Source: Arenibacter sp. F26102 | Lineage (GTDB): Bacteria > Bacteroidota > Bacteroidia > Flavobacteriales > Flavobacteriaceae | Length of the DNA: 64,000 nucleotides | Direction of reading: 5' to 3' | Assembly: GCF_023015865.1 (NCBI RefSeq) | Contig: NZ_JALKBC010000013.1 | Span: 1-64,000 of the forward strand | Shown here: piece by piece, positions 32,563 to 53,120 of the stretch | Position numbering within the stretch: the first letter of the stretch is position 1 | Layout of the letters: each line of letters begins with the position of its first letter | The notes under the pieces: generated by a model | What the model saw: the letters and a program-made list of their open reading frames with translations, nothing else | What the model was told of the DNA's origin: nothing | Database searches by the model: none | Program-made: the position numbers and the translations under genes

Positions 32563-32635
32563 CACGGGCGGAGAGGCTCGAACTCCCGACACCTGGTTTT
32601 GGAGACCAGTGCTCTACCAACTGAGCTACACCCGT
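32563..32635 (-). tRNA. tRNA-Trp (CCA anticodon)
   Basis: A 73-nt cloverleaf. The acceptor arms ACGGGTG/CGCCCGT pair, discriminator G is as expected for tRNA-Trp, the D arm is GTAGCTCAGTTGGTAGAGC and the T loop TTCGAGC. The anticodon loop reads CTCCAAA, with anticodon CCA. Between tuf and secE, the same place as in many bacteria. CCA is not encoded in full. Confidence 0.96.
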
Positions 32636-32640
32636 TTATA

Positions 32641-32687
32641 TTTACATTGAAAGGTATCCCGCTTTAGCAAGACACCCTCAATGTAAA
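32641..32687 (-). other. Long-loop hairpin between tuf and tRNA-Trp
   Basis: TTTACATTGA (32641-32650) is the exact complement of TCAATGTAAA (32678-32687), a 10-bp stem with a 27-nt loop and no T-run. It lies in the tuf 3' spacer just before the tRNA, so a processing structure separating tuf mRNA from the tRNA is more likely than a terminator. Confidence 0.5.
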
Positions 32688-32705
32688 CAATACTATACTA
32701 AAATA

Positions 32706-33893
32706 TTAATCCAATATCTTGGTAACCTGACCAGCACCAACTGTTCTACCACCTTCACGGATTGCAAAACGCAAACCTTCACTAAGTGCAATTGGAGACA
32801 ACAAATCAACAATAATAGTAAGGTTATCACCAGGCATAACCATTTCTACTCCACTAGGAAGATTAATAGTACCAGTAACATCGGTAGTTCTTACATAGAA
32901 CTGAGGACGATAGTTATTATGGAATGGAGTGTGACGTCCACCTTCTTCTTTTTTAAGGATATAAACCTCAGCTTCAAATTTAGCATGTGGCTTAACAGAA
33001 CCTGGCTTACAGATTACCATCCCTCTTTTAATTTGAGATTTTTCAATACCTCTCAAAAGGATACCTACGTTATCACCAGCTTCACCTCTATCCAATATTT
33101 TACGGAACATTTCAACCCCAGTAATTGTAGAGTTCAATTTCTCAGCTCCCATACCGATGATCTCAACAGGATCTCCTGTATTTGCAACTCCAGTCTCAAT
33201 ACGACCAGTAGCAACAGTACCACGACCTGTAATAGTAAATACATCTTCAACTGGCATTAAGAAAGGCTTATCAACATCTCTCTGTGGCAATTCGATCCAG
33301 CTATCAACAGCCTCCATCAAAGACATAACTGTATCAACCCATTTTTGCTCACCGTTAAGGGCACCTAAAGCAGAACCAGAGATAACAGGACCATTGTCAC
33401 CATCATACTCATAGAAAGAAAGCAATTCTCTTACTTCCATTTCAACCAATTCCAAAAGCTCCTCATCATCAACCATATCAACCTTGTTCAAGAAAACAAC
33501 GATTCTTGGAATACCAACCTGACGTCCTAAAAGGATGTGCTCACGAGTCTGTGGCATAGGACCATCAGTAGCAGCAACAACCAAAATAGCACCGTCCATT
33601 TGAGCAGCACCAGTAACCATGTTCTTTACGTAATCCGCGTGACCTGGACAATCCACGTGAGCATAGTGACGGTTCGCGGTAGAGTACTCTACGTGTGAAG
33701 TATTAATAGTAATACCTCTTTCCTTTTCTTCAGGAGCGTTATCGATAGAATCGAAACTTCTCATTTCAGAAAGTCCTGCGTTTGCCAATACCGTAGTAAT
33801 CGCAGCAGTCAATGTAGTTTTACCGTGATCCACGTGTCCAATAGTACCTATATTTAAATGCGGTTTGGAACGATCAAATGTTGCCTTTGCCAT
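32706..33893 (-). CDS. tuf: Translation elongation factor Tu
   Basis: 395 residues, full length. GTPase motifs: GHVDHGKT (19-26), DCPGH (82-86) and NKVD (137-140). The domain 2 and 3 signatures [13 protein letters not shown] and [19 protein letters not shown] are intact. It delivers aminoacyl-tRNA to the ribosome. The gene sits after four tRNA genes and before tRNA-Trp, echoing the thrU-tyrU-glyT-thrT-tufB order of Escherichia coli. Confidence 0.99.
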
Positions 33894-33947
33894 GTTTGTT
33901 AATTTTAATTCTTAGTTTATATTAGTGTACAAATAATGCCTTAATTG

Positions 33948-34019
33948 AGCCAATGATGAGATTTGAACTCATGACCTCTTCCTTACCAAGGAAACGCTCT
34001 ACCCCTGAGCTACACCGGC
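33948..34019 (-). tRNA. tRNA-Thr (GGT anticodon)
   Basis: 72 nt. The acceptor GCCGGTG/CATTGGC pairs with two G-T wobbles. Anticodon stem TTTCC/GGAAG with loop TTGGTAA, anticodon GGT; T arm ATGAG-TTCAAAT-CTCAT. Last tRNA before tuf. Confidence 0.95.
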
Positions 34020-34083
34020 ATCTTTAATTTTAACAATTGAGCTAGGCCCAATTTAAAACTATAACCCTATACCCAAAGTTTAA

Positions 34084-34106
34084 GAGCGTTGACGAAGTTT
34101 ACCCTC
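34084..34106. repeat. REP-like fragment in the Gly-Thr tRNA spacer
   Basis: The minus-strand text AGGGTAAACTTC here matches AGGATAAACTTC (plus) at 34529-34540 in 11 of 12 bases, in opposite orientation. Both sit in GC-rich patches unlike the AT-rich spacers around them. Low-complexity coincidence is not excluded. Confidence 0.35.
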
Positions 34107-34197
34107 GGCGGCGCTCTGGACAGGATACAAAAATCTCGTCCATTTAATTTTAATTGCGCAAAGCCCCATCAAAGGAGCTTTTGCTTTTAAAATCTTG

Positions 34198-34270
34198 AGC
34201 GGGAGACCGGGTTCGAACCGGCGACATTCAGCTTGGAAGGCTGACGCTCTACCAACTGAGCTACTCCCGC
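34198..34270 (-). tRNA. tRNA-Gly (TCC anticodon)
   Basis: 73 nt. The perfect acceptor GCGGGAG/CTCCCGC is present. Anticodon stem TCAGC/GCTGA with loop CTTCCAA, anticodon TCC; T arm CCGG-TTCGAAC-CCGG. Confidence 0.96.
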
Positions 34271-34362
34271 ATTGTAATTTTTAGGCAAACCTAAAAATTA
34301 ATTTCATCATTTCAAAAAAAACTTTCTGTATTTTCATACAAAGACCATTAAAGGCCTTTTTG

Positions 34363-34444
<82 letters not shown>

Positions 34445-34488
34445 AAACCATATTTTAAAGAACTTAAGAAAATTAAATTTTCTTACTT

Positions 34489-34513
34489 TTTTTTTGAGTT
34501 AATAGAGGGACTC
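34489..34513 (-). repeat. Remnant of a tRNA-Thr 3' end
   Basis: The 25 bp here match the 3' end of tRNA-Thr(TGT) plus its downstream T/A-run (34602-34626) at 22 of 25 positions: GAGTCCCTCTAT, three changed bases, CTC, then the A-run. Only the T-arm/acceptor strand is copied, so it is not a functional tRNA. Confidence 0.6.
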
Positions 34514-34560
34514 CCCTCAACTACGCTCAGGATAAACTTCTCGCCCCCGGACGCTTTTCA
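34514..34560. repeat. REP-like GC-rich element abutting the tRNA remnant
   Basis: Sequence around CTCAACTACGCTCAGGATA resembles the widespread Bacteroidetes palindromic element of the CTTCGACTGCGCTCAGGAT type. It directly abuts the tRNA-Thr 3' remnant. Family assignment is from memory of the motif, not a search. Confidence 0.4.
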
Positions 34561-34609
34561 ACCCTATTTCAAAAATCCAAACAAAAATAAAACTATTTCT
34601 GTTTTTTTG

Positions 34610-34683
34610 AGCCGATAGAGGGACTCGAACCCACGACCTGCTGATTACAAATCAGCTGCTCTAGCCAGCTGAGCTACATCGGC
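34610..34683 (-). tRNA. tRNA-Thr (TGT anticodon)
   Basis: 74 nt. Acceptor GCCGATG/TATCGGC, D arm GTAGCTCAGCTGGCTAGAGC, anticodon stem GCTGA/TCAGC with loop TTTGTAA, anticodon TGT; T arm GTGGG-TTCGAGT-CCCTC. First gene of the tRNA-tuf transcription unit, just after the promoter at 34733-34762. Confidence 0.96.
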
Positions 34684-45514: not shown

Positions 45515-46093
45515 ATGAGAAAAATTGCATTAAGTTTAGTATTAGCCACATTTACAGGTTTAACCGCCATTGCTTCTACTCCCGTGGACAAGGAAATTAA
45601 GGAAGTAAAAACTGATGAAAGCACCGTTACTTGGAAAGGATATAAAGTTACTGGTTCCCATCATGGTACGATTGCATTAAAAGAAGGATCCTTAATTTTT
45701 GAAGGTGATAAATTATCCGGAGGAGAATTTGTAGTGGATATGCCAACATTGGTTTCAAATGATTTACAAGGGGAATACAAAGGGAAGTTGGAAGGTCATT
45801 TAAAATCTGACGATTTTTTTGGTGTCGAAGCACATCCTACTTCCAAATTGGTTTTCACTACCGTAAAAGCAACTGGAAAAAATTCATATGAAGTTAAGGG
45901 AAATCTTACCGTAAAGGGAAAAACAAACCCTGTAACCTTTGATATCTCTGTTTATGGAAACAAGGCAACGGCCACTATGAAAGTTGATCGTTCATTGTAC
46001 GACGTTAAATACGGATCTGGAAGTTTCTTTGATAATTTAGGGGACAAAACCATTTATGATGAATTTGATCTAGTAGTAGATTTGGTATTCTAA
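45515..46093 (+). CDS. YceI family periplasmic protein
   Basis: 192 residues with a signal peptide (about 1-21, MRKIALSLVLATFTGLTAIAS). A YceI lipocalin-like barrel follows: VTWKGYKVTGSHHGTIALKEG, LEGHLKSDDFFGVEAHPTSKLVF, VKGNLTVKGKTNPVTF, YGSGSFFDNLGDKTIYDEFDL. The family binds polyisoprenoid or quinone-like lipids, which suits a redox-stress operon. Third gene after marR and the nitroreductase. Confidence 0.93.
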   Translation: MRKIALSLVLATFTGLTAIASTPVDKEIKEVKTDESTVTWKGYKVTGSHHGTIALKEGSLIFEGDKLSGGEFVVDMPTLVSNDLQGEYKGKLEGHLKSDDFFGVEAHPTSKLVFTTVKATGKNSYEVKGNLTVKGKTNPVTFDISVYGNKATATMKVDRSLYDVKYGSGSFFDNLGDKTIYDEFDLVVDLVF

Positions 46094-46116
46094 ATGCAAT
46101 CACATAGCCATGTTTA

Positions 46117-46142
46117 AAACCTCACAATTGTGGGGTTTTTTA
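46117..46142 (+). terminator. Terminator of the marR-nitroreductase-yceI unit
   Basis: AACCTCAC, AATT, GTGGGGTT (about 46118-46137, one G-T pair) followed by a T-run. 25 bp after the YceI stop and before the trp promoter. Confidence 0.8.
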
Positions 46143-46160: not shown

Positions 46161-46191
46161 TTTGTAAATTTAAAATTCCTTCTTATATTTG
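46161..46191 (+). promoter_or_regulatory. trp operon promoter
   Basis: TTTG (46161-46164), exactly 19 bp, TATATTTG (46184-46191): a full match to the Bacteroidetes consensus. Transcription would begin about 46195-46199, at or just before the leader ATG (46199). Confidence 0.8.
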
Positions 46192-46198
46192 GCCTTCA

Positions 46199-46255
46199 AT
46201 GAAGAACATGGTATCAAATACTTGGTGGTGGAGCAACTTACGAACAACATCGTGA
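46199..46255 (+). CDS. trpL: trp leader peptide
   Basis: An 18-residue frame, MKNMVSNTWWWSNLRTTS, with three consecutive TGG codons at 46223-46231 and a TGA stop at 46253-46255. It starts within a few bases of the predicted transcript 5' end, so the mRNA would be nearly leaderless. A terminator follows at 46284-46315 and trpE at 46374. Three adjacent Trp codons in so short a frame at this place are very unlikely by chance. It should report tRNA-Trp charging: stalling favours readthrough into trpE, completion favours termination. Confidence 0.85.
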   Translation: MKNMVSNTWWWSNLRTTS

Positions 46256-46315
46256 GCAAAGCATCATTGTAGTATAACTATATAAAAGGCTTGTCATCAC
46301 GACAAGCCTTTTTTT
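46251..46315 (+). promoter_or_regulatory. trp attenuator (antiterminator and intrinsic terminator)
   Basis: Terminator: AAAAGGCTTGTC (46284-46295), 5-nt loop, GACAAGCCTTTT (46301-46312), with T-run; perfect 12-bp stem. A candidate antiterminator pairs GTGAGCAAAGC (46252-46262) with GCTTGTCATCAC (46289-46300): GTGA/TCAC plus CAA(A)GC/GCTTG. A ribosome at the leader stop would cover the first segment, while one stalled at the Trp codons would leave it free. The terminator is clear; the alternative fold is a proposal. Confidence 0.75.
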
Positions 46316-46373
46316 CGTTTATCATAGAAATCATAAGCCCTAATGGCACCTAGTAGCAACAAACAGAATTATC

Positions 46374-47771
46374 ATGAAATACCAATTAGTTTCGCATCAT
46401 AAAAAAATACTTGCAGACACCATTACCCCTGTTAGCGTTTATCTAAAAATTAGGGATCGTTTTCCAAATAGTATCCTATTGGAAAGTAGTGACTACCACG
46501 CCAATGACAATAGCTTTTCCTATATATGCTGTAACCCTATCGCTTCCATAAAGGTGGAAAATGAGACTGTCATTAAACAATTTCCTGACGGCACTACGGA
46601 AGAAACCAACATTACGGAACACACGGACATCCCTGGAATTTTACATGATTTCAGTAAAAAATTTGATTCCCAGAACAACAACTTTAAGTTTATCAACAAT
46701 GGCTTGTTCGGATATATGGCCTATGATGCGGTTCGGTATTTTGAGGATATAAATATCTCCAAAAAAAGTAATAGTTTCTCCATTCCGGATATCTATTATG
46801 CCATTTATCAAAATATAGTGGCTATAAACCATTTTAAAAACGAAGCCTATATTTTTGCCCATTGTTATGAATCCGAAAATAACATTGGGGAAATAGAACA
46901 GATACTCAACGCCAAGAATTTCGCTTCCTACAATTTTTCCAAAGAGGGCAAACCAGAATCCAATTTAAAGGATGAGGAATATATGGAACAAGTGGAACTT
47001 GCCAAAAAACATTGCAACAGAGGGGATGTTTTTCAACTGGTATTGTCCAGAAGATTTTCCCAAGAATTTAAGGGAGATGAGTTCAATGTATATCGTGCCC
47101 TACGTTCTATAAACCCTTCACCCTATTTATTTTATTTTGATTATGGTGATTTTAAAATTTTTGGAAGTTCTCCGGAAGCCCAATTGATCGTAAAAGAGGG
47201 CAAGGCTGAAATTCACCCCATTGCAGGAACTTTTAAAAGAACGGGTAATGATGAACAGGATGCCGAGTTGGCCAAGAAACTAAAAATAGATGATAAAGAG
47301 AATAGCGAACACGTTATGTTGGTTGACCTTGCCAGAAACGATCTAAGTCGCAATGGAACTATGGTAAAGGTGGAAAACTATAGGGAGGTTCAATTCTTTT
47401 CCCATGTAATCCATTTAGTATCCAAGGTAACCGGACAAAAGAAAAAGGATATCCCAACTATGAAAGTGGTTGCCGACACCTTTCCTGCCGGTACCTTAAG
47501 TGGTGCACCTAAGCATATGGCCATGCAACTTATTGAAAAATATGAAAAAACCAGTAGGGGCTATTACGGCGGGGCCATAGGATTTATGGATTTCAATGGC
47601 AATTTTAACCACGCCATTATGATCCGGACCTTTTTAAGCAAAAATCATCAATTACATTACCAGGCCGGAGCCGGTTTGGTGGCCGCTTCAATTCCTGAAA
47701 ATGAACTTCAGGAAACATACAACAAATTAGGAGCCCTGACCAAGGCACTTGAAATAGCGGAAAGTATATAA
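46374..47771 (+). CDS. trpE: Anthranilate synthase component I
   Basis: 465 residues. It converts chorismate and ammonia to anthranilate, first step of tryptophan synthesis, with TrpG supplying ammonia. The tryptophan feedback site LLESS is near residue 38. The chorismate-binding core includes DVFQLVLSRRFSQEF, GSSPEAQLIVKEGKAEIHPIAGTFKRTG, SEHVMLVDLARNDLSR, FPAGTLSGAPKHMAM and QAGAGLVAASIPENE. First structural gene after the attenuator. Confidence 0.98.
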   Translation: MKYQLVSHHKKILADTITPVSVYLKIRDRFPNSILLESSDYHANDNSFSYICCNPIASIKVENETVIKQFPDGTTEETNITEHTDIPGILHDFSKKFDSQNNNFKFINNGLFGYMAYDAVRYFEDINISKKSNSFSIPDIYYAIYQNIVAINHFKNEAYIFAHCYESENNIGEIEQILNAKNFASYNFSKEGKPESNLKDEEYMEQVELAKKHCNRGDVFQLVLSRRFSQEFKGDEFNVYRALRSINPSPYLFYFDYGDFKIFGSSPEAQLIVKEGKAEIHPIAGTFKRTGNDEQDAELAKKLKIDDKENSEHVMLVDLARNDLSRNGTMVKVENYREVQFFSHVIHLVSKVTGQKKKDIPTMKVVADTFPAGTLSGAPKHMAMQLIEKYEKTSRGYYGGAIGFMDFNGNFNHAIMIRTFLSKNHQLHYQAGAGLVAASIPENELQETYNKLGALTKALEIAESI

Positions 47772-47852
47772 AAAACGCCCATTAATTTGTCTTTTCCTAA
47801 AAGAGGCATTTGCAAGAACAATATAAAATGTTCAATAGAGAACGTCAATAGT

Positions 47853-48470
47853 ATGAAAGAGAATACAGATAATAAAACAAATACCAACTCCTTGGACAAA
47901 GGCCAAGGAAAGTCCATATTGGTAATAGACAATTACGATAGCTTTACCTACAACCTGGTACATTATTTGGAAGATTTGGATTGTATAGTAACTGTTAAAA
48001 GAAATGATCAAATAAGTCTGGAGGAAATAGATGGTTTTGACAAAATCGTTCTTTCACCAGGTCCTGGTATCCCTGACGAGGCAGGTCTACTCAAAGAAAT
48101 TATAGCCATGTACGCACCTACAAAAAGTATATTTGGGGTATGCTTGGGACAACAGGCCATTGCGGAGGTCTTTGGGGGTTCATTGGTTAACATAGACCAG
48201 GTCTACCACGGTATAGCCACCAAAATAGATATTGTAAAGGATGATATTTTGTTTGATGGATTGCCTAAGGAAATTGAAGTGGGACGCTACCATTCCTGGG
48301 TAGTTAATCCAGACCTACCAGAAGTATTGGAAGCTACTTCTTTTGATGAAAATGGACAGGTCATGTCCCTGCGCCACAAAATATATGACGTAAGTGCCGT
48401 ACAATTTCACCCAGAGTCCGTATTGACTCCCAATGGAAAAAAAATATTGGAGAATTGGGTAAAAAACTAA
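47853..48470 (+). CDS. trpG: Anthranilate synthase component II (glutamine amidotransferase)
   Basis: 205 residues from the ATG at 47853; an in-frame TTG further upstream is unlikely. A class I amidotransferase with oxyanion loop LSPGPGIPDEAG, nucleophile Cys97 (FGVCLGQQ) and the His186/Glu188 pair (QFHPES). There is a charged N-terminal extension of about 20 residues before ILVIDNYDSFTYN. Releases ammonia from glutamine for TrpE. Not fused to trpD. Confidence 0.97.
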   Translation: MKENTDNKTNTNSLDKGQGKSILVIDNYDSFTYNLVHYLEDLDCIVTVKRNDQISLEEIDGFDKIVLSPGPGIPDEAGLLKEIIAMYAPTKSIFGVCLGQQAIAEVFGGSLVNIDQVYHGIATKIDIVKDDILFDGLPKEIEVGRYHSWVVNPDLPEVLEATSFDENGQVMSLRHKIYDVSAVQFHPESVLTPNGKKILENWVKN

Positions 48471-48582
48471 AAGCAATTAATGGGTACGAACTATTAATTT
48501 TCTTTAAAGCCTTATCAACAACAAAATATAAAAACCGAGAATTACAAGTGCTCCGTACTTATGTCTCAACACCTTAGAAATA

Positions 48583-49575
48583 ATGAAAGATATTCTAAAC
48601 AAACTGATCAATCACGATGTGCTTCCAAAAGAGGATGCCAAACAGGTTTTGGTCAATATTGCCAAAGGAGATTACAACACAAGTCAGATTGCCGCTTTTT
48701 TAACCGTTTATATGATGCGTAGTGTCACCATAGAGGAATTGGAAGGCTTTAGGGACGCACTATTGGAACTTTGTTTGGCGGTGGACTTATCACATTACAA
48801 CCCAATAGACCTATGTGGTACAGGTGGTGACGGCAAGGATACCTTCAACATTTCTACCTTGGCCAGTTTTGTAACGGCCGGGGCCGATGTTAAAGTAACC
48901 AAACACGGCAACTATGGTGTATCCTCCAAATGTGGCAGCAGTAATGTAATGGAGTTTTTGGGAATAAAATTCAGTAATGATGCAGGATTTCTAGAAAAAT
49001 GTATAGATGAGGCCGGCATTTGTGTACTGCATGCTCCACTATTTCATCCCGCCATGAAGAATGTAGCTCCAATCCGTAGGGAACTAGGTGTTAAAACTTT
49101 CTTTAATATGTTGGGGCCCATGGTGAATCCCGCCTTTCCCAAGAACCAAATGGTTGGAGTTTTTAACCTAGAGCTGGCTAGAATGTACGGTTACCTTTAT
49201 CAAAAGACCGATAAGAATTTTACGGTTTTGCATGCCTTGGACGGTTATGATGAAATTTCATTGACAGGAAATACAAAAACCATTACCAACAAAGCCGAAG
49301 GAATGTTAAAGCCTTCCGATTTTGGCGTGGAAACCATTTTGGCGTCGGAAATAGTAGGTGGGGATAGTATTGAAGAATCCGCTCAAGTTTTTCTCAATGT
49401 TTTACAAGGAAAAGGCACCACTCCACAAAATAATGTAGTCTGTGCCAATGCTGGTATTGCCATAGCCACAGTTAAGGGAATAAGTCCTAGGGAAGGCTTT
49501 GAGCAAGCCAAGGAATCCTTGGTCAGCGGAAGAGGGTTGGCAGCCTTAAAAAAATTACAGGCGTTAAGCCAATAA
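48583..49575 (+). CDS. trpD: Anthranilate phosphoribosyltransferase
   Basis: 330 residues. It transfers phosphoribosyl from PRPP to anthranilate. The PRPP/Mg site is LCGTGGDGKDTFNISTL (about 78-94), with KHGNYGVSSKCGSSNVMEFLG and the anthranilate-site region HPAMKNVAPIRRELGVKTFFNMLGP. Lies 112 bp after trpG, with no terminator seen in the gap. Confidence 0.98.
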   Translation: MKDILNKLINHDVLPKEDAKQVLVNIAKGDYNTSQIAAFLTVYMMRSVTIEELEGFRDALLELCLAVDLSHYNPIDLCGTGGDGKDTFNISTLASFVTAGADVKVTKHGNYGVSSKCGSSNVMEFLGIKFSNDAGFLEKCIDEAGICVLHAPLFHPAMKNVAPIRRELGVKTFFNMLGPMVNPAFPKNQMVGVFNLELARMYGYLYQKTDKNFTVLHALDGYDEISLTGNTKTITNKAEGMLKPSDFGVETILASEIVGGDSIEESAQVFLNVLQGKGTTPQNNVVCANAGIAIATVKGISPREGFEQAKESLVSGRGLAALKKLQALSQ

Positions 49576-49621
49576 CAAATAATAAATAAACCGCCCAGCA
49601 CAGACTGGCGTTATAGTACCC

Positions 49622-50404
49622 ATGAATATACTGGACAAAATAGTTTTGGATAAGAGAAAGGAAGTAGATTTAAAGAAATCGATTATCCCGGTTTCCCAAT
49701 TGGAAGCTTCTGCATTGTTCAACAGAACTACCGTTTCATTGGCAGATGCCCTTAGAAATAGCAATAGTGGAATAATCGCTGAGCACAAACGCAGGTCCCC
49801 GTCCAAATCGGTCATCAACCAAAACAATAGTGTTTCGGATGTTGCGGTCGGCTATGAAAATGCAGGTGCCTGCGGTATGTCCGTTTTAACCGACGGAAAG
49901 TATTTTGGAGGTTCTTTGGACGATCTACTATTGGCAAGGGCATCTGTTCAAATGCCTTTACTTCGCAAAGAATTCATCATAGACGAATATCAACTTTTGG
50001 AAGCCAAGGCCTATGGTGCAGATGTAATTTTATTAATTGCGGCCATATTGACAAGGGCCGAGATAAAAGCCTTTTCCGAATTTGCCAAACAGTTACATTT
50101 GGATGTATTGTTGGAAGTTCACAACGAAGAAGAATTACAAAAATCCATTATGCCCAGTTTGGACATGCTGGGTGTAAATAATCGAAATCTAAAATCGTTT
50201 GAAGTAAGCCTTGATACCAGTAAAAAATTATCCCCTTTAATTCCTGACGATTTTGTGAAGGTTTCGGAAAGTGGTATAAGCACCATTGAAGCCATTCAAG
50301 AATTAAAACCCTATGGATACCAAGGATTTTTAATAGGTGAGAATTTTATGAAAACCGATAATCCTGGAGAAAGCGCCTTACATTTTATTAAATCGATTAA
50401 ATAA
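49622..50404 (+). CDS. trpC: Indole-3-glycerol phosphate synthase
   Basis: 260 residues, TIM barrel, monofunctional (not fused to TrpF). Catalytic motifs are IIAEHKRRSPSK, the catalytic-lysine segment LLRKEFIIDEYQ, LLEVHNEEEL, LGVNNRNLKSF and SESGIST. Closes the ring to form indole-glycerol phosphate with loss of CO2. Confidence 0.98.
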   Translation: MNILDKIVLDKRKEVDLKKSIIPVSQLEASALFNRTTVSLADALRNSNSGIIAEHKRRSPSKSVINQNNSVSDVAVGYENAGACGMSVLTDGKYFGGSLDDLLLARASVQMPLLRKEFIIDEYQLLEAKAYGADVILLIAAILTRAEIKAFSEFAKQLHLDVLLEVHNEEELQKSIMPSLDMLGVNNRNLKSFEVSLDTSKKLSPLIPDDFVKVSESGISTIEAIQELKPYGYQGFLIGENFMKTDNPGESALHFIKSIK

Positions 50405-50414
50405 CAAAATAGCC

Positions 50415-51065
50415 ATGAAACTGAAAGTGTGTGGTATGAATTTGAATACTTTGGAGGTAGCCACCCTATATCCGGATTATCTTGGTTTCATATTTTGGAA
50501 ACCCTCCAAACGGTTTAATGAAGGAAACATTCCGCAATTACCACCGTCCATTAAAAAAGTAGGTGTTTTTGTAGATGCTACTATTGAGGAAGTTTTAGAA
50601 AAAATTGAAACCTTTGGCTTGGATGCGGTTCAATTGCATGGAAAGGAAAGTCCAGAATTCTGCAGCAGCCTTAAGAGGTTTATCAATGACCGTACAAAAG
50701 CTTTGGGGGCGGCAAACCTTAAAATCATAAAAGTGTTTTCTATAAAGGACGATTTTGACTTTGGCGTTTTGACTCCCTACGAAGAGGTATGCGATTATTA
50801 TCTTTTTGACACCAAAGGAAAATTGCCCGGTGGCAATGGCTACACCTTTAGTTGGGAGGTCCTGAAAAACTATCACTCCACCAAACCATATTTCCTAAGT
50901 GGTGGAATAGGCTTGGACGAGATTGAAAAAATAAAGGAATTTAAAAAAAGACCGGAATCAAAATATTGCCATGCCATTGATGTCAATAGTAAGTTTGAAT
51001 TGGAACCGGGCTTAAAGGATATAGACAAATTAAAGGAATTTAAAGAAGTATTGGGAATTGGGTAG
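50415..51065 (+). CDS. trpF: Phosphoribosylanthranilate isomerase
   Basis: 216 residues, TIM barrel. The catalytic Cys is in MKLKVCGM (Cys6), with DYLGFIFWKPSKRF, AVQLHGKE, YYLFDTKGKLPGGNG containing the catalytic Asp, and FLSGGIGLDE. Directs the Amadori rearrangement before TrpC. 10 bp after trpC. Confidence 0.97.
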   Translation: MKLKVCGMNLNTLEVATLYPDYLGFIFWKPSKRFNEGNIPQLPPSIKKVGVFVDATIEEVLEKIETFGLDAVQLHGKESPEFCSSLKRFINDRTKALGAANLKIIKVFSIKDDFDFGVLTPYEEVCDYYLFDTKGKLPGGNGYTFSWEVLKNYHSTKPYFLSGGIGLDEIEKIKEFKKRPESKYCHAIDVNSKFELEPGLKDIDKLKEFKEVLGIG

Positions 51066-51121
51066 TTGGAATACAATACTCGATATTTGATACCCTGTAC
51101 TGAATACTAGATTATAAAATC

Positions 51122-52303
51122 ATGAATTACAACGTAGACGAAAAAGGTTATTATGGGGAATTCGGAGGAGCATTTATTCCTGAAATGCTCTACCCTAATG
51201 TTGAAAACCTTAGGCAGCAGTATCTAATAATAATGGCTGAGCCTTCCTTTAAAAAGGAATTTGACCAGTTACTGAAGGATTATGTAGGCCGGCCTTCACC
51301 TCTGTATTTTGCTAAACGTTTGTCCGAAAAGTACAACACCAAAGTTTATTTAAAGCGCGAAGACCTAAATCATACCGGTGCCCATAAAGTTAATAATACC
51401 ATCGGGCAAATATTAATGGCCAAACGCCTTGGCAAAACAAGGATTATAGCGGAAACAGGTGCTGGTCAACATGGTGTGGCAACAGCAACGGTATGTGCCC
51501 TTATGGGAATGGAATGTATTGTGTATATGGGAGAAATAGATATTGCCAGACAGGCTCCCAATGTTGCCCGTATGAAAATGCTTGGAGCAGAAGTAAGGCC
51601 AGCACTATCCGGAAGCAGAACCCTTAAGGACGCCACCAATGAAGCAATCAGGGATTGGATCAACAATCCAGTGGACACCCATTATATTATTGGATCTGCT
51701 ATTGGCCCCCACCCCTACCCCGATATGGTAACAAGGTTTCAATCCATTATTTCTGAGGAGATAAAGTGGCAGTTGAAAGAGAAGGAAGGCAAGGAAAACC
51801 CAGATTTCGTTGTGGCATGCATAGGTGGCGGTAGTAATGCGGCAGGCACCTTCTACCATTTCCTACATGAAAAGGAGGTAGGTATTATTGCTGTTGAAGC
51901 TGCAGGAAAAGGTGTGGATAGCGGTGAAAGTGCGGCAACTTCAGTACTTGGGAAAATGGGAATTATTCATGGATGCAAAACCCTGTTAATGCAAACCATA
52001 GATGGGCAGATTACGGAACCCTATTCCATTTCCGCAGGACTGGATTATCCAGGGGTTGGACCAATGCACGCGCATTTATTTAAAACAGGAAGAGCCGAAT
52101 TTATTGCGGTAACAGACGATGAGGCCATGCAGGCCGGGATGGTATTGTCCAAATTGGAGGGAATTATACCCGCCATAGAGTCCTCACATGCCTTTGCCAT
52201 TTTGGAAACCAGAAAGTTTAAACCTGAAGATGTAGTAGTTATTAACCTTTCTGGCCGAGGTGATAAGGACTTGGACACCTACATTAAATATTTTAAACTG
52301 TAA
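51122..52303 (+). CDS. trpB: Tryptophan synthase beta subunit
   Basis: 393 residues. The pyridoxal-phosphate lysine is Lys89 ([12 protein letters not shown]), with the phosphate-binding loop [13 protein letters not shown] and the conserved [10 protein letters not shown] start and [11 protein letters not shown]. Condenses indole with serine. Main TrpB1 type, fitting partnership with the adjacent TrpA. Confidence 0.98.
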
Positions 52304-52355
52304 GCCTCTTATACATTCCTACCAAGGTGGAAATGCAAAAAAAAATAAAGTTAGA

Positions 52356-53120
52356 ATGAATAGAATACACCAAAAACTACAGGCAGATAATAAAATATTA
52401 TCCATATACTTTACTGCCGGTTACCCATCTTTGAACGATACAGTCAAGATTATTCAAGATCTTGAAAAAAACGGAGTTGATATGATCGAAATTGGATTGC
52501 CCTTTAGCGATCCATTAGCCGATGGGCCCACCATACAGGCCAGTTCTACCCAAGCCTTGAAGAATGGGATGACCACCTCGCTATTATTCCAGCAGTTAAA
52601 AGATATTAGAGAATCAGTTTCCATACCCTTAATCCTTATGGGATATTTCAATCCTGTTCTACAATATGGTGTAGAAGATTTTTGCAGAAAATGTCAGGAA
52701 ATAGGAATAGACGGACTTATTTTGCCCGATCTGCCATTGGACGTGTATCAGGAAAACTATGAAGCAATATTTAATAAATATGGCCTTGTAAATGTTTTCT
52801 TGATTACTCCACAAACCAGTGATGATCGTATCGATCAGATCGATGCTGCTTCGGACGGTTTTATCTATATGGTAAGTTCTGCAAGTGTAACAGGTTCCCA
52901 AGATGGTTTCGGTAATAATCAGGAAACCTACTTTCAGCGCATTGCGGATATGAAATTGAAAAACCCACAGGTAGTTGGTTTTGGAATAAGTAATTCAGAA
53001 ACCTTCCAACAGGCAACCAAACAGGCCAAGGGGGCCATTATTGGCTCGGCCTTTATTAAATTTTTGACGCAAAATGGTGTTGACAAAATTGGGGATTTCG
53101 TGAAGGGAATTCGAAAATAG
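52356..53120 (+). CDS. trpA: Tryptophan synthase alpha subunit
   Basis: 254 residues from the ATG at 52356; the frame opens earlier, overlapping trpB, but family members start here (MNRIHQKLQ). Catalytic Glu45 (MIEIGLPFSDP) and Asp56 (LADGPT), plus FTAGYP and ILMGYFNPVLQYG. It cleaves indole-glycerol phosphate and channels indole to TrpB. Confidence 0.98.
   Translation: MNRIHQKLQADNKILSIYFTAGYPSLNDTVKIIQDLEKNGVDMIEIGLPFSDPLADGPTIQASSTQALKNGMTTSLLFQQLKDIRESVSIPLILMGYFNPVLQYGVEDFCRKCQEIGIDGLILPDLPLDVYQENYEAIFNKYGLVNVFLITPQTSDDRIDQIDAASDGFIYMVSSASVTGSQDGFGNNQETYFQRIADMKLKNPQVVGFGISNSETFQQATKQAKGAIIGSAFIKFLTQNGVDKIGDFVKGIRK

Follow-up and report, generated by a model that had tools for sequence, protein, structure and literature searches.

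The trp operon of the marine bacterium Arenibacter sp. F26102 is preceded by what we read as a classical ribosome-mediated trp attenuator whose leader mRNA would be leaderless, or nearly so, and to this reading we assign a probability of about 0.8. The subject of the analysis was a 64,000-nt stretch of DNA, hereafter the window, covering positions 1 to 64,000 of contig NZ_JALKBC010000013.1 in assembly GCF_023015865.1, forward strand. The sequences show the anatomy of the locus, its conservation and its alternative pairings; the start site, leaderless loading and the response to Trp are inferred.

Upstream of the trp leader lies a YceI-like gene (45515-46093; ORF with a Pfam YceI domain match), followed on the plus strand by a terminator-like hairpin with a 10-bp stem and a T-run (46116-46139), which would probably shield the leader from upstream read-through. 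That the upstream gene has a terminator-like hairpin of its own suggests that a promoter is needed within the next ~60 nt. Such a promoter is visible on the plus strand as a -33 element TTTG (46161-46164) and, at a distance of 19 bp, a -7 box TATATTTG for the housekeeping sigma factor (46184-46191), which is conserved in relatives. This is the only 6-of-6 TAnnTTTG box between the upstream gene and trpE, and of four boxes in this interval that match 5 or all 6 core letters, TATATTTG alone is preceded by a TTG at the right distance. In most of the 77 named relatives scored, xTTG likewise stands ~18-20 bp 5' of the box. After 7 nt past the -7 box, the ATG at 46199-46201 opens an 18-codon leader peptide ORF, MKNMVSNTWWWSNLRTTS (46199-46255, plus strand; stop TGA at 46253-46255). 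Its control codons TGG TGG TGG (46223-46231, plus strand) are invariant in all 45 aligned leaders. An intrinsic terminator, found by stem search and folding, follows at 46284-46312 on the plus strand with a perfect 12-bp stem, a 5-nt loop and a T-run at 46309-46315. It stands before trpE (ATG at 46374), the first structural gene of a trpE-G-D-C-F-B-A operon assigned by ORFs and Pfam domains (46374-53120, plus strand). Read directly, the promoter, the 18-codon frame, the TGG run, the terminator and trpE all sit, base for base, where the original prediction had placed them. The closest named relatives belong to Arenibacter, TrpE being 98% identical to those of A. hampyeongensis and A. arenosicollis. 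Elsewhere in the window, five tRNA genes are clustered at 32563-34683 on the minus strand.

A scan of the 5.4-Mb genome for TTTG-N18-21-TAnnTTTG-N4-9-ATG gave 23 matches, against 15 in a reversed control. The promoter-plus-ATG string alone, barely above chance, is weak evidence for the trp leader arrangement, so conservation and the Rfam match serve as evidence against chance instead. Over 864 kb of the organism's own genome, 28 intergenic promoter-like matches (of 38) were found before 614 predicted ORFs, three of them at 4-8 nt, which is too few for a strong test alone.

The leader RNA at 46179-46295 matched the Rfam family RF01692 (Bacteroid-trp) with 52.6 bits against a gathering score of 49. 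Since this score is above the cut-off, the attenuator as such was already known. The locus resembles the family in RNA score, in its peptide pattern and in its position before trp genes; the Bacteroid-trp model has its AUG near consensus position 21 and is silent on the transcript start. A search with RF01692 (E 0.001, strict filters) matched 30 of 296 phylum genomes and missed many relatives. The locus has a short leader ORF with tandem Trp codons before the trp genes, conserved in 88 of 89 Flavobacteriaceae genera, and an intrinsic terminator before trpE. By its sequence, the locus is a functional-looking ribosome-mediated trp attenuator. The proposal of attenuation via the Trp codons was supported by the Rfam match together with the conservation of the leader.

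The expected transcript start was taken from two flavobacteria. In Flavobacterium johnsoniae the -7 element spans T-12 to G-5, with 4 or 5 nt to the start marking probable promoters (PMC6847099), and in F. psychrophilum the box is reported at -12 to -5 (PMC9723704). Combined with the C-A often seen at nt 4-5 past the box, this spacing gives a predicted start zone of 46196-46199 on the plus strand: the 4-5-nt spacing predicts 46196-46197, and a C/A initiator predicts 46198 or 46199. The fifth nucleotide past the box is T in the window, and the exact predicted start is uncertain. A start in this zone would leave 0-3 nt before the leader AUG, which makes a leaderless or near-leaderless leader peptide probable by analogy. 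The placement of the leader peptide ~0-3 nt from the predicted 5' end also gained support from the broad comparison of spacing across Flavobacteriaceae and other families described below.

Of 199 Flavobacteriaceae genomes, each from a different genus, 183 contained TrpE, and upstream DNA was taken for 90 of these TrpE loci, selected mostly by TrpE rank and not randomly; one was too short, leaving 89. A leader was scored when its ORF had WW 7-9 codons from the start and a box matching at least 5 of the 6 core letters lay no more than 37 nt away. By these criteria 88 of the 89 genera have a Trp leader with a box, its start 7-9 codons before the Trp run. The remaining locus, L074, has a leader with an exact box 40 nt upstream, outside the scoring range. 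The box-to-start distance was bimodal, with modes of 5 and 18: 39 genera had 4-8 nt (the short class), eight had 9-12 nt and 41 had at least 14 nt (the long class), with L023, which has boxes at 4 and 18 nt, counted as 18. In mixture fits to the 87 values up to 22, which ignore relatedness, two or three groups did better than one, the BIC being 563 for one group, 504 for two and 227 for three. No distance below 4 nt was seen among the family genera and named relatives scored, and 4 nt is the least spacing that keeps the AUG within a transcript begun 4 nt past the box.

On the TrpE tree, 28 of the 29 rows in the window's clade had 4-8 nt. The short-spacing label requires nine changes over this tree, at least eight of them by well-supported branches, given unsettled bootstrap values and a midpoint root. 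Among the 80 nearest named genomes, 70 had 4-8 nt and ten had at least 15 nt. The spacing is retained although the first codons and the stretch from box to ATG diverge widely in sequence, and in seven named loci where the leader lies ~490-580 nt upstream of trpE the spacing is 5 or 7 nt. As a separate observation, an exception within the short-spaced clade, L270 (Pareuzebyella; also L008), has its leader ATG 30 nt past the box, an apparent secondary lengthening. Six Muricauda/Allomuricauda/Flagellimonas loci and one uncultured Flavobacteriaceae locus have ~430-520 nt between leader stop and trpE (L279 and L262; by distance L282, L291, L296, L306 and L327). In L279 a small ORF in this gap matches Pfam GIY-YIG, and L262 has a similar ORF by eye; both are flanked by short palindrome-like repeats, which looks like a small mobile element.

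The two classes share some features of the start region and differ in others. C at nt 4 and A at nt 5 after the box occurred in 24 and 20 of the 39 short-class leaders, and in 26 and 30 of the 41 long-class leaders; this shared C-A tendency agrees with a single initiator occupying one position in the two classes. At -3, a Kozak-like position reported for F. johnsoniae, A was present in 28 of 41 long-class versus 4 of 39 short-class leaders, and the A-rich stretch before the start is missing from the short class. The short-class -3 position adjoins the promoter box, and promoter needs may also shape the base there. ATG is the start codon in the window, in 38 of 39 short-class leaders and in 39 of 41 long-class leaders; the one short-class GTG, in L028 at 5 nt, is a poor fit to leaderless loading.

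Short spacing was also found beyond Flavobacteriaceae. In a TrpE search covering 119 genomes of the class, 39 matched and 30 loci were returned, 27 of them from other families; upstream DNA was too short in three, and by the fixed criteria a Trp leader was present in 17 of the other 24. A box with 5 or 6 of the 6 letters lay at 4-8 nt in 11 of these 17, from seven families; four were farther (10, 13, 18 and 18 nt) and two had no box. As a control, 22 of all 223 ATGs in these regions had a box at 4-8 nt, the 11 leaders included. In L493 the leader, spaced at 5 nt, lies farther upstream than the criteria allow, and this locus was counted among the seven without. A locus from another family of the order (L141) had 5 nt, and one from another family of the class (L119), read by eye before trpB, had 22 nt. 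The short spacing may be older than the long class of Flavobacteriaceae.

The competing RNA helices of a trp switch can be drawn at the locus. In the inner 1:2 hairpin (46237-46256, plus strand, from folds), strand 1 CUUACGA (46237-46243) pairs with strand 2 UCGUGAG (46250-46256), which contains the stop codon. The alternative partner of strand 2 is UCACGA at 46297-46302, consisting of the terminator loop and two bases of the 3' arm; additional pairs involve the 5' arm. Thus strand 3, the antiterminator partner (46289-46302, plus strand, from pairing in 45 leaders), comprises GCUU of the terminator 5' arm and UCACGA of the loop and 3' arm. The original prediction had singled out 46252-46262, which is near the antiterminator arm but does not delimit it exactly, the arm being 46250-46256 plus 46259-46262. 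An outer hairpin on the plus strand (46218-46275), with one arm over the Trp codons (46218-46230) and the other at 46262-46275, also folds in the window; with 76.8% of cells paired in the alignment and covariation no better than in shuffles, it could at most tentatively be a pause or protector hairpin. The leader fold as a whole beat all 200 shuffles (z -5.45).

Conservation of these helices was assessed in an alignment of 45 short-spaced leaders (A3), made of the window and 44 of 63 leaders. It leaves out 19, namely L252 (replaced by the window), L263, L300, L267 (incomplete) and others resembling kept rows, and its structures were drawn from the window, which favours the window. The share of paired cells was 89.2% for 1:2, 98.1% for 3:4, and 97.8% (UCGUGA:UCACGA) and 92.2% (second part) for the 2:3 antiterminator, against 18-56% in slid-partner controls over 1:2, 2:3 and 3:4 (18-45% for 2:3). 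By sequence, an antiterminator exclusive with the terminator appears to be conserved, and a ribosome at the stop would be expected to mask it. In 1:2 and 3:4, two pairs change on both sides, as many as in 143 of 500 shuffles, and the covariation score was reached in 9 of 500 (RNAalifold term -0.38); the 2:3 antiterminator had no two-sided changes among the 45 leaders. Covariation in A3 is low because the helices are nearly invariant. Across the family, read by eye, the base that follows UCGUGA and the one that precedes UCACGA change jointly. In that order, the two bases are A and U in many leaders of the long class, C and G in L075, G and C in both L087 and L107, and U and A in L111. In the window, as in most of its class, UCGUGA is followed by a G that faces an A in the loop, unpaired, so these joint changes come from other lineages. 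In several genera the leader stop is shifted relative to UCGUGA, still within ~10 nt; as the stop shifts while UCGUGA stays, the RNA segment is what is kept.

With these elements, the switch would work as follows. RNA polymerase would start at ~46196-46199, placing the AUG at 46199 right at the 5' end or at most 3 nt away from it. A ribosome would load at this 5' AUG without an upstream binding region. When Trp-tRNA is scarce, the ribosome would stall at the three Trp codons and cover strand 1; strand 2 (UCGUGA) could then pair with the terminator loop (UCACGA) and part of the 5' arm, and trpE would be read. When Trp-tRNA is ample, a ribosome at the stop inside strand 2 would block that strand, and the 3:4 terminator would form. 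An untranslated leader would fold into the 1:2 hairpin, so that transcription would stop too. The trpL leader of Escherichia coli follows the 1:2, 2:3, 3:4 logic and has tandem Trp codons, its leader ORF having a longer 5' UTR and an ordinary ribosome binding site. The Arenibacter locus shares this logic and the tandem Trp codons; unlike trpL, its antiterminator uses the terminator loop, and its stop codon lies inside strand 2.

Further leaders appear to be present in Arenibacter-type genomes, with His codons upstream of hisG (L145-L165), Thr upstream of thrA (L197-L204), Ile/Val upstream of ilvD (L209, L214, L225) and Phe upstream of pheA (L237). The His leader (MKNNRTHHHHFFTCSQAS in the window's genome) begins 7 nt past the box in 18 of 18 genomes of the genus, the boxes being 6-of-6 in 16 and 5-of-6 in two by eye; the trp leader spacing in the genus is 7-8 nt. 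By eye, the Ilv leader begins 4-5 nt past a TAnTTTT[AG] box (one of them perfect) in seven of eight congener loci; in the eighth, it lies outside the stretch examined. The Thr leader stands 13-17 nt past a perfect box in eight of ten loci, seven of them congeners; the other two, from other families, are without a perfect box. The Phe leader in the window's genome is ~19 nt past an imperfect box by eye. On the thr and phe distances we rejected the possibility that every leader peptide in this organism is leaderless. Within the genus, the trp and his leaders are predicted by their spacing to be leaderless or nearly so, and the ilv leader probably is as well.

Among 30 other genera, the His box lay at 7-8 nt in all 15 genomes with short trp spacing, and the best His box at 14 nt or more in all 15 with long trp spacing. 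Only 5 of 6 letters match in 14 of the 15 short His boxes, and for 11 of the 15 there is a rival 5-of-6 box at 14-16; a perfect box stands at 35 in two genomes of that set, and the genomes belong mostly to two clades. It is therefore only suggestive that his spacing tracks trp spacing across these genera. The Ilv leaders of other genera gave no reliable scoring, their boxes being degenerate. In other families a His leader could be scored in 14 of 23 loci, 12 of them at 11-21 nt; the exceptions are L536, with a perfect box at 7, and L533, with imperfect boxes at 8 and 12. In nine other-family genomes scored for both, His was farther from its box than Trp in seven, equal in one and nearer in one. 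Fisher and binomial values carry no weight in our reasoning, since related genomes are not independent. The His leaders of other families thus did not bear out short spacing as a genome-wide trait.

Leaderless amino-acid leaders have precedents in other phyla. In Sinorhizobium meliloti the transcript of the trp attenuator trpL (rnTrpL) begins with the leader AUG; this alphaproteobacterial leader encodes a 14-aa peptide and also acts in trans (PMC7298713). The 18-aa leader of Streptomyces lividans trpL1, MFAHSTRNWWWTAHPAAH, has WWW after eight residues and is reported as leaderless; it differs in coming from Actinobacteria, with 17% leaderless transcripts in that study (PMC8079986), while the studied Bacteroidota members use such transcripts less. 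The ilvB leader of Corynebacterium diphtheriae is also documented as leaderless (PMC5784534). The original prediction had implied a contrast with all established trp leaders, which does not stand, given the known family RF01692 and the leaderless trp leaders of S. meliloti (PMC7298713) and S. lividans (PMC8079986). For Bacteroidota, the F. psychrophilum study (PMC9723704) reports indications that leader peptides attenuate amino-acid operons, along with conserved 5' elements upstream of pheA and hisG. Literature searches covering article listings and selected passages, with most subscription journals and the F. psychrophilum tables that may contain such cases outside their scope, yielded no description of leaderless leader peptides in this phylum. 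What is new is mainly how widespread the short-spaced arrangement is and, outside the window's clade, how trp-specific.

Leaderless initiation had also been said to suit a phylum with a sequestered anti-Shine-Dalgarno, a rationale that found no support, since most mRNAs of the studied phylum members have leaders. In F. johnsoniae, leaders over 10 nt are carried by 87% of the transcripts with a probable promoter (PMC6847099); the mRNAs of 890 CDSs in F. psychrophilum are reported as 5.5% leaderless (PMC9723704), and in Bacteroides thetaiotaomicron ~3.7% of 5' UTRs are under 10 nt (PMC7366714). Two further points speak against it: the same-genus thr and phe leaders lie 13-19 nt past their boxes, and 41 of the 88 trp leaders from Flavobacteriaceae have a spacing of at least 14 nt.

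The alternative that we take most seriously, though we consider it unlikely, is that the short spacing is drift in promoter position without a role, one non-Shine-Dalgarno pathway operating with or without a few upstream nucleotides. The repeated changes of the spacing label on the TrpE tree (at least eight) fit this view, as does a peptide and RNA switch common to both spacing classes. Drift accounts poorly for two spacing modes with only 8 of 88 values at 9-13, for a spacing of 4-8 nt kept in 28 of 29 rows of one clade despite diverged N-terminal codons, and for the loss of the A-rich context in the short class; nor does it sit well with the Trp leader being nearer its box than the His leader in seven of nine genomes (one tie, one reverse).

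The same attenuator could also be translated, very improbably in our view, from the second ATG at 46208, which is in frame and 16 nt past the box and would give the mRNA a 9-12-nt leader. This Met at codon 4 occurs in L252-L255 (MKNMVSNT) but is absent from the Arenibacter loci L256 and L258, a start five codons before the Trp run is absent from the other family rows examined, and 88 of 89 genera retain the first start position. Least probable of all is control by a T-box, a TRAP-like protein or a repressor, with an incidental ORF and no ribosome stalling, as the reading frame, the Trp codons and the position of the stop near strand 2 are all conserved, and no T-box appeared among the six gathering-score Rfam matches in the 64-kb window or the 13 weak matches at the leader.

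We therefore keep to the attenuator on a leaderless or nearly leaderless leader mRNA for the window. A spacing of at least 14 nt in 41 of the 88 Flavobacteriaceae genera indicates that the mechanism does not require leaderless loading. For much of Bacteroidia we offer a broader and tentative view, at slightly less than even odds, that the trp attenuator works with a leaderless leader peptide maintained by selection. A 5'-AUG without or nearly without a leader, or a 10-18-nt A-rich leader, would both work and intermediates would be avoided; the arrangement would be trp-specific in most families, with a spread to his, and perhaps ilv, in the Arenibacter-type clade, leaderless mRNAs being otherwise a small minority in the phylum. 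Ribosome-mediated attenuation depends on the speed of ribosome loading behind RNA polymerase. Leaderless and leadered forms of one switch in related genera, in a phylum without Shine-Dalgarno sequences, would constitute a natural experiment on this coupling, and the bimodal spacing, together with the contrast between trp and his within genomes, makes the question of leaderless loading directly testable.
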